Below, piece by piece: positions 13,117 through 21,335 of a stretch of 64,000 bases of DNA. A model generated the notes under the pieces. It saw nothing but the letters and a program-made list of their open reading frames with translations. It made no database searches and had not been told where the DNA came from. Source of the stretch: Halorubrum lacusprofundi ATCC 49239 (GTDB lineage: Archaea; Halobacteriota; Halobacteria; Halobacteriales; Haloferacaceae); the NCBI RefSeq assembly GCF_000022205.1, contig NC_012029.1, forward strand, positions 1,922,001 through 1,986,000, written 5' to 3'. Position 1 is the first letter of the stretch. Each line of letters begins with the position of its first letter. Position numbers and translations under genes: made by a program.

Positions 13117-13974
13117 TCAGGTATCACGATTGAGCGTCGACTCGGTGTCGATCTCGTACACGGCGCGGGGTGTCTCGACATGAGCGCGCCGGACCGCGTC
13201 GTCGTATCCCGCTTCCAGCAGCCAGCGGACACGGCGCGGGACTGTCTTCGGACCGAGCACCATCCCCGGCTTTTCGGGGTCGTCGACGTAGTCGGTCTCC
13301 ATCAGGAAGGGCTCGCCCGACTCGGCGGCGCGTTCGAGCCGGTCCTTCTCGCTCATCACGCTCGGGGTGAGTCCCGCGAGTCGCCCCTCGGCGTAATGTT
13401 TTACCACGCGCGTGGGATCGAGTCCCACCTCCTCAGCGGCGGCGGCCAGATCGGTGAGGTCCTCGCTGGCCTCGGTGTGGAGCTGGACGGCGCAGTCGAG
13501 GGCGGCACCGAGCTCGAACGCGCGCCGCGTCACGGCGTTCGACGCCGCCCAGACCGCGTCGCTCACGTCGTAATGCGGGCGCCCCGACTTCAGCGCCAGT
13601 GCATCGCCGTCGGCGACGAACTCGCTTGCGACCTCGATCCCGCCCTGCATCAGGTCGCGGGCGTCCTCGGGCGAGAACCCCCGATCGTCGACGAGCCGAC
13701 TTATCAGGCCGGGATGAACGCCGAGGACGGGCCACGCGCGCCCCGGAAGCACCTCGTTTGCGGCCGCGACCGCGTCGAGCGTCTCCTCGAAGACGGGCCG
13801 GAAGTCGGTCGGCTCGTCGGGCTCGACGCCGAGGTGCCACGACGGCTTGTTTACTACGAGCAGATGGGTCCCGCCGAGCCGGACGAAGTCCTTGACGGCG
13901 TCGACCCCGCGACCGTGACGCGGATCGAGGTGGAGATGATTGTCGAGCACCGGCGTGTCGAGGTCGTCGGTCAT
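13117..13974 (-). CDS. TatD family metal-dependent hydrolase
   Basis: A 285-residue amidohydrolase-superfamily protein of the archaeal TatD-like group. Metal ligands are visible in order: the DNHLHLD HxH motif at residues 11-17, GVHPG near 85, QLHTEASED near 143, VVKHYAEG near 168 and the ETDYVDDP aspartate near 204. TatD enzymes are divalent-metal nucleases or deoxyribonucleases; this subgroup is less well characterised and could act on other phosphoesters. A TATA box (GTTTATAAGC in gene orientation) 26-35 bp before the ATG at 13974 supports a leaderless start. Confidence 0.88.
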   Translation of the reverse strand: MTDDLDTPVLDNHLHLDPRHGRGVDAVKDFVRLGGTHLLVVNKPSWHLGVEPDEPTDFRPVFEETLDAVAAANEVLPGRAWPVLGVHPGLISRLVDDRGFSPEDARDLMQGGIEVASEFVADGDALALKSGRPHYDVSDAVWAASNAVTRRAFELGAALDCAVQLHTEASEDLTDLAAAAEEVGLDPTRVVKHYAEGRLAGLTPSVMSEKDRLERAAESGEPFLMETDYVDDPEKPGMVLGPKTVPRRVRWLLEAGYDDAVRRAHVETPRAVYEIDTESTLNRDT

Positions 13975-17221: not shown

Positions 17222-17297
17222 GACGTTCAGTCGGTCGGCTCCCGTTTTCTCCCCCTGTTCTCGCTGCATGCTACCAATTCTTGATCCGGCGACAGCG

Positions 17298-17354
17298 TTA
17301 TACCGATGTACATACTTGTACATTACAACGCGAAACACTACATCGGTGTACACA
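17298..17354 (+). promoter_or_regulatory. trp operon promoter with three TGTACA boxes
   Basis: The sequence TTATACC at 17298-17304 is the likely TATA box. TGTACA occurs at 17307-17312, 17317-17322 and 17347-17352, that is at offsets of exactly 10 and 40 bp, so all three lie on the same helix face. The first two lie in an inverted repeat ATGTACA-TACT-TGTACAT (17306-17323) between TATA box and expected transcription start. The third abuts the ATG at 17355. TGTACA is the reported TRP-box consensus bound by the tryptophan repressor TrpY in Methanothermobacter. Confidence 0.75.
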
Positions 17355-18440
17355 ATGAATATCAACGACACGGTCGAACGCGTGACGGACGGGGCGGACC
17401 TGACGGTCGACGAGGCGCGCGAGGCCGCGCGGCTCGTCTTCGAGGAGGCAACTGAGGCGCAGATCGGCGCCTTGCTCGCCGCGCTCCGCGCGAAGGGGGA
17501 GACCGAGGCGGAGATCGCGGGGTTCGCACAGGGGATGCGCGACGCCGCCCGGACGATCGAGCCCGACCGGGAGCCGCTCGTCGACACTTGCGGGACCGGC
17601 GGCGACGACTACGACACAATCAACGTCTCGACGACCGCCGCGATCGTCGCGGCGGGCGCGGGCGTCCCGATCGCCAAGCACGGCAACTACTCGGTGTCCT
17701 CCTCGTCGGGAAGCGCCGACGTGCTGGAGGTCGCGGGCGCCGACGTGGAGGCCGAGCCGCCGGCGGTCGAGGAAGCGATCGAGACCGACGGGATCGGGTT
17801 CATGCTCGCGCCCGTCTTCCACCCGGCGATGAAGGCCGTCATCGGCCCGCGCAAGGAACTCGGGATGCGGACGATCTTCAACGTGCTCGGCCCGCTTACC
17901 AACCCCGCCGGCGCCGACGCGCAGGTACTCGGCGTGTACGACCCCGACCTCGTCGGGACGATCGCGCGGTCGCTCGCGCACATGCCCGTCGAACACGCCT
18001 TGGTCGTCCACGGCGCGGGGATGGACGAGATCGGGATCCACGACGAGACGGTCGCCGCCGAGGTCGACGGCGACGAGGTGCGGGAGTTCACGATCGCACC
18101 CGAGGATCTGGGCCTCGATCGCGCCCCGATCGAGGCGGTTTCTGGCGGGACGCCAGAGGAGAACGCGGCCGACCTCCGCGGGATCGTCGACGGCTCCGTC
18201 ACCGGTCCCAAGCGCGACCTCATTCTGGCGAACGCGGGCGCGGCAATCTACGTCGCCGGCGAGACCGACACGCTCGCGGCGGGCGTCGAGCGCGCGGCCG
18301 AGGCGATCGACTCCGGCGCGGCCGCGACGAAGTTCGCTGCGCTTTGTGGTGACGACGAGGCAGTCGAGGGCGACGGCGAGGCGGCCTCTACCGACTCCGC
18401 GGCCGCCTCGACGACCGCCGGCCCGGAGGACGACGACTGA
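17355..18440 (+). CDS. trpD: Anthranilate phosphoribosyltransferase
   Basis: A 361-residue TrpD, which joins anthranilate to PRPP to give phosphoribosylanthranilate, the second step from chorismate to tryptophan. The PRPP-binding CGTGGD motif is near residue 78, followed by NVSTTAAIVAAGAGVPIAKHGNYSVSSSSGSADVLE (about 87-122), the anthranilate-site RKELGMRTIFNVLGPLTNPA near 169, and the metal-binding DE pair in the HGAGMDEIG segment. The last 30 residues are an acidic Ala/Ser/Glu tail not needed for the fold. It is first gene of the operon; its TGA overlaps the ATG of trpF by one base. Confidence 0.97.
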   Translation: MNINDTVERVTDGADLTVDEAREAARLVFEEATEAQIGALLAALRAKGETEAEIAGFAQGMRDAARTIEPDREPLVDTCGTGGDDYDTINVSTTAAIVAAGAGVPIAKHGNYSVSSSSGSADVLEVAGADVEAEPPAVEEAIETDGIGFMLAPVFHPAMKAVIGPRKELGMRTIFNVLGPLTNPAGADAQVLGVYDPDLVGTIARSLAHMPVEHALVVHGAGMDEIGIHDETVAAEVDGDEVREFTIAPEDLGLDRAPIEAVSGGTPEENAADLRGIVDGSVTGPKRDLILANAGAAIYVAGETDTLAAGVERAAEAIDSGAAATKFAALCGDDEAVEGDGEAASTDSAAASTTAGPEDDD

Positions 18441-19084
18441 TGGCGCGGGTGAAGATCTGCGGGCTGACGCGGGGAGCCGACCTCCGCGCCGCGATCGACG
18501 CCGGCGCCGACGCGGTGGGCGTCATCTCCGAGGTCCCGGTCGACTCCCCCCGCGAGGTCGACCCGGCGACGGCGGCGGAGCTACTCGCGGATGTACCGCC
18601 GTTCGTCACCGCGACGCTCGTCACGATGCCCGACTCCGCCGAGCGCGCGGTCGAGCTCCTACGGACGATCTGTCCGGACGCCATCCAGCTTCACGGCGAG
18701 TGGACGCCCGACGAGATCCGGTTCATCCGCGCGGAGACGGAGCGGAAGGTGTTACTCGCGGTCGACGCCGACGACCCGGCGCGGGCCGAGGAGTTCGATC
18801 GGGTCGCCGACGCGCTCGTGATCGACTCGACCGACGACTCCGGCGCGGGCGGCACCGGCGAGACCCACGACTGGGAACGAGCCGGCGACCTCGCCGACCG
18901 ACTCACCTCGCCGGTGGTCCTCGCCGGCGGACTCACGGCCGACAACGTCGCCGAAGCGGTTCGCGCCGCCGATCCGTTCGCGGTCGACGTGGCCTCGGGC
19001 GTCGAACTCACCGACGGGCGAAAGGACCACAACGCGGTGGCCCGCTTCGTGGCGAACGCGGGGCGGGAGATGGAGTTGGCATGA
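18440..19084 (+). CDS. trpF: Phosphoribosylanthranilate isomerase
   Basis: A 214-residue TIM-barrel enzyme for the third step, isomerising phosphoribosylanthranilate to CdRP. The start MARVKICGLTRGADLRAA carries the catalytic Cys of the KICG motif at residue 7. The QLHGEWTPDEI segment near 77, the catalytic Asp region LVIDSTDDSGAGGTGETHDW near 130, the phosphate-binding VVLAGGLTADNV near 156 and VDVASGVE near 177 are all present. It overlaps trpD by one base and trpE by four (ATGA), so translation is coupled. Confidence 0.95.
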   Translation: MARVKICGLTRGADLRAAIDAGADAVGVISEVPVDSPREVDPATAAELLADVPPFVTATLVTMPDSAERAVELLRTICPDAIQLHGEWTPDEIRFIRAETERKVLLAVDADDPARAEEFDRVADALVIDSTDDSGAGGTGETHDWERAGDLADRLTSPVVLAGGLTADNVAEAVRAADPFAVDVASGVELTDGRKDHNAVARFVANAGREMELA

Positions 19085-20745
19085 CCGAGTCGGCGACTCC
19101 GATCGATCGCTCGAAGGCCGAGTTCGTCGACCTCGCGGCCGACGCCGAGAAGCCGGCCGTGGTCCGCGCGTCCGCGTCGCTCGACGCCGACGTGACCCCG
19201 CTGGCGGCGTACGCGACGCTGGTCGGCGAGGGTCCGTACGGGTTCCTCTTGGAGTCCGGCGAGAAGGTCGCCTCCAGCGACCCCGACGGCGCGTTCACCG
19301 CCGACGGCGACGTCGACAAACACGCCCGGTACTCGTTCGTCGGCTACGACCCCGAGGCGATCGTCTCGGTCCACCCGGACCGGACGGACGTGACTCGGCT
19401 CGGCCCGGCGGCGGAGTTCGTCGGAGACGAGTCTGACGGCGATCTGGGTCCCGACGCCGGCGACGCGATCGATCGAATCCGGGCGGCGTTCCCGGACGTG
19501 AGCCTGCGCGGCTTCCCGGATACCGACCGACAGATCCTCTCGGGCGGCTTCGTCGGCTTCCTCGCGTACGAGGCCGTCTACGACCTCTGGTTGGAGGAGG
19601 TCGGCGTCAAGCGCCCCGAGACCGAGTTCCCGGACGCCGAGTTCGCGCTGACGACCCGGACCGTCGTTTTCGACGATAAGGAGGGGACCGTCGAACTCGT
19701 TTTCACCCCGATCGTCGGCGTCGACGACGACCCCGCGACCGTCTACGACGACCTCGTCGCTGAGGCGGAGCGGGTCGGCGCCGAGCTCCGGGACGCGTCC
19801 CCGCCGACGCCCGACGGGATCCGCGTGACCGACGAGTCCGCCGACCCCCGAGAGGCGTACGAGGAGGCGGTGCGGACCGCCAAACGGCACGTCCTTGACG
19901 GCGATATTTATCAGGGCGTGATCTCGCGGAGCCGCGAGCTCCGCGGCGAGGTCGACTCGCTCGGGCTGTACGCGGCACTGCGCGAGGTGAACCCCTCGCC
20001 GTACATGTACGTGCTGCGCCACGACGACCGCAGTATCGTCGGCGCGAGCCCCGAGACGCTGGTGTCGGTGCAAGGCGACCGTATCGTCTCGAACCCGATC
20101 GCGGGCACCTGTCCCCGGGGGGAGAGCCCGGTCGAGGACCGTCGGCTCGCCGGCGAGATGCTTGCGGACGGGAAGGAGCGCGCTGAACACACGATGCTCG
20201 TCGACCTCGCGCGCAACGACGTGCGGCGCGTCTCGGAGCCGGGCTCGATCCGCGTCGAGGAGTTCATGAACGTGTTGAAGTACAGTCACGTCCAGCACAT
20301 CGAGTCGACCGTGACGGGGACGCTGGCGGGCGACGCCGACGCCTTCGACGCGACGCGCGCGACGTTCCCCGCGGGCACGCTCACCGGTGCGCCGAAAGTG
20401 CGCGCGATGGAGATCATCGAGGAGTTGGAGACGACCCCGCGGGAGGCGTACGGCGGCGGCGTCGGCTACTACGCGTGGACCGGCGACGCCGACTTCGCCA
20501 TCGTGATCCGGACGGCGACGCTCGACGAGTCGCCGCCGGACGCGAGCGGTCCGGACGAGACCGCGGTGACCGTCCGCGCCGGTGCCGGGCTCGTCGCCGA
20601 CTCCGACCCGGCCGCCGAGTACGAGGAGACCGAACAGAAGATGGACGGCGTGTTGACCGCGATCGACCGGATCCGGGAGGGCGGTGATGGCGACTCCCTC
20701 TCCTCCGACGACACCCTCCCCGCCGGCACGGAGGTCGACGAATGA
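19081..20745 (+). CDS. trpE: Anthranilate synthase component I
   Basis: A 554-residue chorismate-using subunit that, with TrpG, makes anthranilate from chorismate and glutamine. The N-terminal half carries the tryptophan-binding region: LLESGEKV near residue 58 (cf. LLES in bacterial TrpE) and RYSFVGYDP near 82. The catalytic half has GDIYQGVISR near 275, NPSPYMYVLRHDD near 303, ASPETLV, PIAGTCPRGESPVEDRRLAGEML, EHTMLVDLARNDV near 372, SHVQHIESTVTG, TFPAGTLTGAPKVRAMEIIEELE near 430 and GAGLVADSDPAAEYEETEQKM. The LLES element indicates feedback inhibition by tryptophan. The ATG overlaps the trpF stop and its TGA overlaps trpG. Confidence 0.96.
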   Translation: MTESATPIDRSKAEFVDLAADAEKPAVVRASASLDADVTPLAAYATLVGEGPYGFLLESGEKVASSDPDGAFTADGDVDKHARYSFVGYDPEAIVSVHPDRTDVTRLGPAAEFVGDESDGDLGPDAGDAIDRIRAAFPDVSLRGFPDTDRQILSGGFVGFLAYEAVYDLWLEEVGVKRPETEFPDAEFALTTRTVVFDDKEGTVELVFTPIVGVDDDPATVYDDLVAEAERVGAELRDASPPTPDGIRVTDESADPREAYEEAVRTAKRHVLDGDIYQGVISRSRELRGEVDSLGLYAALREVNPSPYMYVLRHDDRSIVGASPETLVSVQGDRIVSNPIAGTCPRGESPVEDRRLAGEMLADGKERAEHTMLVDLARNDVRRVSEPGSIRVEEFMNVLKYSHVQHIESTVTGTLAGDADAFDATRATFPAGTLTGAPKVRAMEIIEELETTPREAYGGGVGYYAWTGDADFAIVIRTATLDESPPDASGPDETAVTVRAGAGLVADSDPAAEYEETEQKMDGVLTAIDRIREGGDGDSLSSDDTLPAGTEVDE

Positions 20746-21335
20746 AGGTCGTCGTCGTCGACAACTTCGACTCGTTCACGTACAACCTCGTCGAGTACAT
20801 CTCTGACCAGCCGCTCGACGGCGAAGAGATTGCTGTCGAGGTGTTCAAGAACACGGCGTCGCTGGTGGAGATCCGGGACGCCGATCCGGACGCGATTCTC
20901 ATCAGCCCCGGTCCCGGCCACCCGAAGAACGAGCGCGACGTGGGCGTGACGATGCCGGTGTTGCGCGACCTGTCTCCAGAGATTCCCACGCTCGGCGTCT
21001 GTCTCGGTCTCGAAGCCGCCGTCTACGAGTATGGGGGGACGGTCGGCCACGCGCCAGAGCCCATCCACGGGAAGGCGTTCCCCGTCGATCACGACGGTGA
21101 GGGCGTGTTCGTCGGGCTCGATCAGGGGTTCCGCGCCGGGCGCTACCACTCGCTGGCCGCCACCGAGGTCTCCGACGACTTCTCGGTGACCGCCACCACC
21201 GACCACGAGGGCGAGGAGATCGTGATGGGGATCCGCCACCGCGACCACCCGATCGAAGCGGTGCAGTTCCACCCCGAAAGCGTGTTGACCGCGGTCGGCC
21301 ACGATCTGATCCGGAACTTCCTCGCCTCCGTTTAA
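20742..21335 (+). CDS. trpG: Anthranilate synthase component II (glutamine amidotransferase)
   Basis: A 197-residue class I glutamine amidotransferase that feeds ammonia to TrpE. The N-terminal VVVVDNFDSFTYNLVEYI, the ISPGPGHP oxyanion segment near residue 52, the nucleophile in GVCLGLEA near 86 and the His-Glu pair in AVQFHPESVLT near 172-181 complete the catalytic triad. It is the last gene of trpDFEG. The remaining tryptophan genes (trpC, trpB, trpA) are not in this window; haloarchaea usually keep them in a separate trpCBA cluster. Confidence 0.95.
   Translation: MKVVVVDNFDSFTYNLVEYISDQPLDGEEIAVEVFKNTASLVEIRDADPDAILISPGPGHPKNERDVGVTMPVLRDLSPEIPTLGVCLGLEAAVYEYGGTVGHAPEPIHGKAFPVDHDGEGVFVGLDQGFRAGRYHSLAATEVSDDFSVTATTDHEGEEIVMGIRHRDHPIEAVQFHPESVLTAVGHDLIRNFLASV

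Follow-up and report, generated by a model that had tools for sequence, protein, structure and literature searches.

Known regulators of archaeal trp genes

TGTACA is the consensus of the TRP box, the site of the regulator TrpY in Methanothermobacter. An initial annotation of a 64,000-nt stretch of the Halorubrum lacusprofundi ATCC 49239 genome (contig NC_012029.1, positions 1,922,001 to 1,986,000; hereafter, the window), made from the sequence alone, had noticed three copies of this hexamer directly upstream of the trpDFEG operon and proposed that a TrpY-like repressor works on haloarchaeal trp operons. The present analysis makes it likely that the site upstream of trpD is a tryptophan operator, belonging to an ancient TrpY-TRP-box repressor system over both haloarchaeal trp operons (trpDFEG and trpCBA).

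In the closest described system, that of Methanothermobacter thermautotrophicus, an autoregulated trpY lies beside the trpEGCFBAD operon, the published arrangement being trpY divergent to trpE (PMC6737238). The haloarchaeal system resembles it in having a full-length member of the NCBIfam family NF053754 as the candidate regulator, TGTACA in trp promoters, and trp genes as the target. It differs in that trpY is unlinked and has no boxes of its own, the trp genes form two separate operons, and three to four boxes lie between the TATA box and the start codon. Adjacency and autoregulation of trpY are features of the Methanothermobacter system that are not needed for membership in the TrpY family.

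Tar (TK0271) of Thermococcus kodakarensis likewise controls trp transcription via TGnnCA-like palindromes (TGGACA-N8-TGTCCA), but it is possibly MarR-like, acts as an activator from a site upstream of the B recognition element (BRE) and the TATA box, and answers to the lack of any aromatic amino acid (PMC6737238). Among haloarchaeal amino-acid-linked regulators, LrpA1 and LrpA2 of Halobacterium salinarum belong to a different family, Lrp/AsnC; LrpA2 has been proposed to regulate genes of aromatic amino acids, with no trp promoter site or direct control shown (PMC4162585). In Haloarcula hispanica, the expression of both trp operons shifts with TrmB status, but the effect is indirect, as no TrmB site or motif is present near these operons, and additional factors have been called for (PMC10817205). 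With LrpA2 proposed and TrmB indirect, none of the papers found establishes which protein acts directly on the trp operons of haloarchaea. Haloarchaeal TrpY homologues are mentioned as untested (PMC6737238). No paper describing a TrpY regulon in haloarchaea was found, consistent with the initial annotation, which had called the system undescribed there; this is weak evidence, since subscription journals were mostly outside the reach of the literature search. What is new here is probably a TrpY/TRP-box system whose operator is laid out differently and whose regulator is unlinked to trp and, apparently, not autoregulated.

The conserved element upstream of trpD

The three TGTACA copies occupy positions 17307-17312, 17317-17322 and 17347-17352, with start spacings of 10 and 30 bp, as originally described. 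Four nucleotides separate a TATA-like TTATA (17298-17302) from the first copy downstream, and the third one ends 2 nt 5' of the trpD ATG at 17355. In the window as a whole, TGTACA is observed 12 times versus 1.9 expected from dinucleotide shuffles, the nine other copies lying inside long reading frames, with possible exceptions at 13974 and 14326. The copy at 13974 is a lone one, overlapping the ATG start codon of a gene on the minus strand (13117-13974), with no second box close by. Across the 3.69-Mb genome, exact TGTACA pairs 2-28 bp apart are found only at the trpD locus, but pairing alone is weak evidence, because about 2-3 such pairs per genome are expected by chance at the density of the window (an estimate). 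Three copies within 46 bp are a different matter, being expected about 0.008 times per genome, in line with the improbability originally ascribed to them. Still, it is conservation across genomes that decides in favor of the trpD boxes being a real, functional element.

The trpD gene was found in all 194 Halobacteria genomes searched, and the upstream region was extracted from 90 of them and aligned without gaps. About 65 bp preceding trpD, from BRE/TATA to the start codon, are conserved gaplessly in these genomes, with mean column identity of 0.58-0.77 within the block versus 0.28-0.31 further upstream. The outline of the block is CGAYAnnnTTAAgtcgATGTACngATTTGTACATyryAAsaCGAAnacGTACATyGGTGnnCAC-ATG, where CGAYA is the BRE and TTAAG the TATA box. 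In H. lacusprofundi, the core promoter (17290-17302, plus strand) consists of the BRE-like CGACA at 17290-17294 and the TATA-like TTATA already mentioned; the pattern CGAYAnnnTTWA is kept in the 90 genomes at a fixed distance from box 1.

Four boxes are conserved, at offsets 0 (TGTAC), 10 (TGTACAT), 31 (KTACAT) and 40 (TGnnCA) from position 17307; these, as well as the spacer described below, have no strand assigned. Box 1 (17307-17312, TGTACA; class consensus ATGTACn) retains TGTAC in 72/90 genomes and the complete TGTACA in 33/90. Box 2 (17317-17323, TGTACAT), which follows 10 bp after box 1, has TGTACA in 61/90 and TGnnCA in 85/90. Box 3 (17338-17343) reads CTACAT here, the class consensus being KTACAT (nnTACA in 71/90), and its center lies 20 bp after that of box 2. 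Box 4 (17345-17353), GGTGTACAC in this genome, has the degenerate consensus GGTGnnCAC, with TGnnCA in 55/90 genomes. Thus, the first two boxes of the initial annotation are conserved, and a better-conserved one at offset +31 had been overlooked. Its third copy, at 17347, is indeed present here, but it is not a conserved box, as TGTACA occurs in this place in four of the 90 genomes, all from one genus, and is replaced in others by TGTCCA, TGGACA, TGTTCA, TGATCA and so on; it is a lineage variant of box 4.

The box centers (2.5, 12.5, 32.5 and 42.5) place all boxes in a 10-bp register. Of the 90 regions, 59 contain a two-box chain with 11 or more of 12 positions matched at a spacing of 10 bp, against five regions at most for each of the other spacings between 6 and 18, so that 10 bp is the only enriched distance. 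The general excess of TGTACA in the window could speak for three functionless copies arisen by chance, but this explanation is already contradicted by the conservation in 90 genomes, the specificity for 10 bp and the matching element at trpC (see below), and its probability is negligible.

Between the two pairs of boxes there is a spacer AAnnC(G)AA (17327-17334), with A20, A21 and C24 nearly invariant. Its column conservation is close to that of the boxes, yet it resembles none of them.

The trpC promoter and the extent of the putative regulon

The promoter of the second operon, trpC(BA), follows the pattern CGCAAGyCTTA-TGWACA-GATnc-GTnCATTAg-TGTACA-nTA-ATG, with three boxes in the same 10-bp register (0/10/20). 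The boxes abut the TATA box directly, and the ATG lies at the expected transcription start; the promoter is apparently leaderless, to judge from this layout. The three-box array precedes trpC in 27/29 genomes and trpB in the remaining two. The latter are loci L093 and L104 (families f5 and f11), where the trp operon appears to be split, or the promoter moved.

A sequence model built from trpC/trpB sites only, with no trpD sequence, matches 67/69 genomes, and in 24 of those genomes its secondary matches, by our tally, are at the trpD promoter, versus about 10 scattered other places. Where examined, the non-trp matches of this model in the 69 genomes are scattered singletons, and no further conserved target was found among them. 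The trpD model has a single match in the H. lacusprofundi genome, and the core pattern finds there the trpC and trpD promoters plus two places outside trp promoters that look like chance. Searches of this genome with the patterns and both models gave no regulon members other than trpC and trpD. Given the 90 trpD regions and the trpC/trpB regions of 29 genomes, the conservation of boxes before both genes, suggested as a check on the initial annotation, holds across the class: the operator array is kept on both trp promoters in essentially all Halobacteria examined.

The trpC array also bears on the possibility that the conserved block works in RNA, as a trpD leader structure or a translational control element. 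Boxes 3 and 4 lie within the probable trpD 5' leader, and conservation reaches towards the start codon. GGTG is able to pair with the 3' end of 16S rRNA, and the GGTG of box 4 could double as a Shine-Dalgarno sequence. On the other hand, RNAalifold predicts no pairs in the trpD leader for 51 sequences, the boxes are palindromic and helix-phased, like sites of DNA-binding dimers, and the trpC array, which lies after TATA and before the ATG in a promoter that appears to be leaderless, leaves little or no leader to act in. Function at the RNA level seems extremely unlikely.

The location of the boxes also argues against a box-bound activator of trp transcription comparable to Tar of Thermococcus. 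Tar sites are upstream of BRE/TATA (PMC6737238), whereas every box here is at or downstream of TATA, a position in which bound protein would be expected to keep the initiation complex from assembling; the Tar-type layout of two hexamers separated by 8 nt is likewise not observed, the register being 10 bp. Activation is, in our estimation, highly unlikely.

The TrpY-family protein

Search for ACT domains in the H. lacusprofundi genome yielded a 166-residue protein with helix-turn-helix (HTH) and ACT domains, encoded outside the window (G000:C2:2609111-2609608, minus strand). It matches NF053754 (TrpY family transcription regulator) with 232 bits at a cut-off of 180, covering profile positions 1-163 of 163. 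The ACT domain (PF01842) scores above the cut-off, and the HTH domain is suggested by the alignment rather than by a Pfam match of its own. The genome therefore contains one full-length TrpY homologue of the HTH plus ACT type, the presence of which had been proposed as a check. NF053754 is above the cut-off in all 194 Halobacteria genomes, nearly always in a single copy, and in 58/60 Methanobacteriales. No solved structure of a TrpY relative was found.

In Methanobacteriales, trpY is divergent to trpE in 17/32 loci examined, with TGTACA present in the intergenic region. In several of these regions, TGTACA forms a 10-bp pair TGTACATAAATGTTCAT, so that haloarchaeal trp promoters share 10-bp box pairs with some Methanobacteriales. 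In this order (loci L175-L177, L180, L196-L223), most trpY genes have a TGTACA at their own promoter, and this also holds for most of those without trpE next to them. Haloarchaeal and methanobacterial TrpY are about 35% identical; the shared residues include VDRR in what is predicted to be the recognition helix, and the IRQ/DPE segment within the ACT domain.

Haloarchaeal trpY genes themselves show no TGTACA boxes in the upstream regions of 30 genes inspected, and autoregulation via such boxes was not seen for them.

Box arrays in other Halobacteriota

We also compared 20 trp upstream regions from other families of Halobacteriota. Many of them contain the same 10-bp arrays before the first trp gene, e.g. 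TGTACA-N4-TGTATA-N4-TGTACA (L286), TATACA-N4-TGTACA-N4-TATACA (L274) and TGAACA-N4-CATACA-N4-AGTACA (L278). Summed over the 20 regions, the three-box score reaches 259 for a spacing of 10, against no more than 227 for the other spacings and 202 +/- 3.7 for shuffled sequences. No array was found at three loci (two from family f15, one from f20) and at a few more of the 20, for some of which the true operon start is uncertain. The TrpY family is present in Methanosarcina acetivorans, taken as a control genome, and in two Methanothrix/Methanosaeta genomes. Based on these arrays, the box system is seen to extend beyond haloarchaea into other Halobacteriota.

This distribution helps to weigh the alternative in which some other regulator universal to haloarchaea, for example LrpA2/trh1 or the TrmB paralogue HAH_0923, uses the boxes as its operator and TrpY acts elsewhere. 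LrpA2 is up 14.9-fold when H. salinarum lacks aromatic amino acids (PMC4162585), HAH_0923 follows trp operons in Har. hispanica (PMC10817205), and the TrpY homologue of T. kodakarensis does not control trp (PMC6737238). But the box matches that beside trpE/trpY in Methanobacteriales, where the adjoining gene encodes a TrpY-family protein, the array recurs across Halobacteriota, and neither a TrmB site nor its motif is present near Har. hispanica trp operons (PMC10817205). Another regulator at these boxes is therefore rather unlikely, though it deserves consideration.

Genes and other features of the locus

The operon starts with trpD (17355..18440), encoding anthranilate phosphoribosyltransferase (TIGR01245, 411 bits, and the translation). 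It is followed by trpF, phosphoribosylanthranilate isomerase (18440..19084), for which the best matches are TrpF models (top 166 bits, below their cut-offs) and the gene order is as in other trp loci. Two genes for anthranilate synthase complete it, trpE, component I (19081..20745; TIGR01820 TrpE-arch, 578 bits), and trpG, component II (20742..21335; NF041322, 349 bits). All four are on the plus strand.

This genome and most of the Halobacteria searched also encode a further, distant paralogue of TrpD type, about 30% identical where listed; for the H. lacusprofundi copy, neither the trpD nor the trpC operator model gave a site. In 25/90 loci (e.g. L059 and L092), a conserved GAAGGTTTCGA motif is seen upstream of trpD, usually about 100 bp away. 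It was rejected as a part of the trp operator, as all four such loci scanned contain a tRNA-Val gene, and is probably the promoter of the latter.

Proposed mechanism

What was observed directly is the boxes with their spacing and conservation, the fact that they are confined to trp promoters, and the presence of a single protein of the TrpY family. We infer TrpY as the binder, tryptophan as the co-repressor and repression as the effect. The TrpY-family protein would bind TGnnCA boxes (best TGTACA) every 10 bp, probably as several dimers along one face of DNA; the 10-bp register, placing the boxes on one helix face, suits cooperative dimers. The putative binding boxes would be those between TATA and the start codon at trpD, and those directly against TATA at trpC. 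Since on both promoters the boxes are at or after TATA, the bound protein should hinder the initiation complex from assembling or advancing: an array occupied by protein carrying tryptophan in its ACT domain would block TBP, TFB or RNA polymerase. Operons trpDFEG and trpCBA would be repressed together and released when tryptophan drops. As would be expected of a tryptophan-dependent repressor, both trp operons of H. salinarum are up when aromatic amino acids are missing (PMC4162585). The proposal of a TrpY-like repressor, with which the initial annotation started, is thus supported by the conservation of boxes together with the presence of a TrpY-family gene.

Several observations weigh against this assignment, chief among them the case of T. 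kodakarensis, where the TrpY homologue has 42% identity with the Methanothermobacter protein and yet the trp operon is not under its control (PMC6737238). The identity of haloarchaeal TrpY to its methanobacterial counterparts, about 35%, is low, and membership in the family is no proof of function. The H. lacusprofundi trpY is unlinked to trp genes, being more than 650 kb from either trp operon, and the 30 haloarchaeal trpY genes lack boxes of their own. The divergence of TrpY does not correlate with that of the operator across 45 genera (rho 0.07). Finally, conservation of the trpD block goes beyond the boxes, in that the spacer at 17327-17334 would not be accounted for by the operator model.

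With these points in mind, we lean towards a broader scenario, in which TrpY with a helix-phased TGnnCA array is an ancestral euryarchaeal tryptophan switch, running from Methanobacteriales via other Halobacteriota to haloarchaea. Side-by-side dimers binding cooperatively every 10 bp would occupy the promoter, starting at TATA and continuing in the direction of the start codon; in haloarchaea, TrpY would have lost its linkage to trp and its autoregulation, and would control the two split operons.

For haloarchaea, this provides a named candidate regulator, an exact operator and a regulon of two operons, approachable in Haloferax volcanii, which is genetically tractable and carries a TrpY-family gene. 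The simple repeat architecture is suited to the study of cooperative repression at archaeal promoters. For the family, TrpY, which controls trp in Methanothermobacter and not in Thermococcus, would belong to a system that is probably common to much of Halobacteriota.
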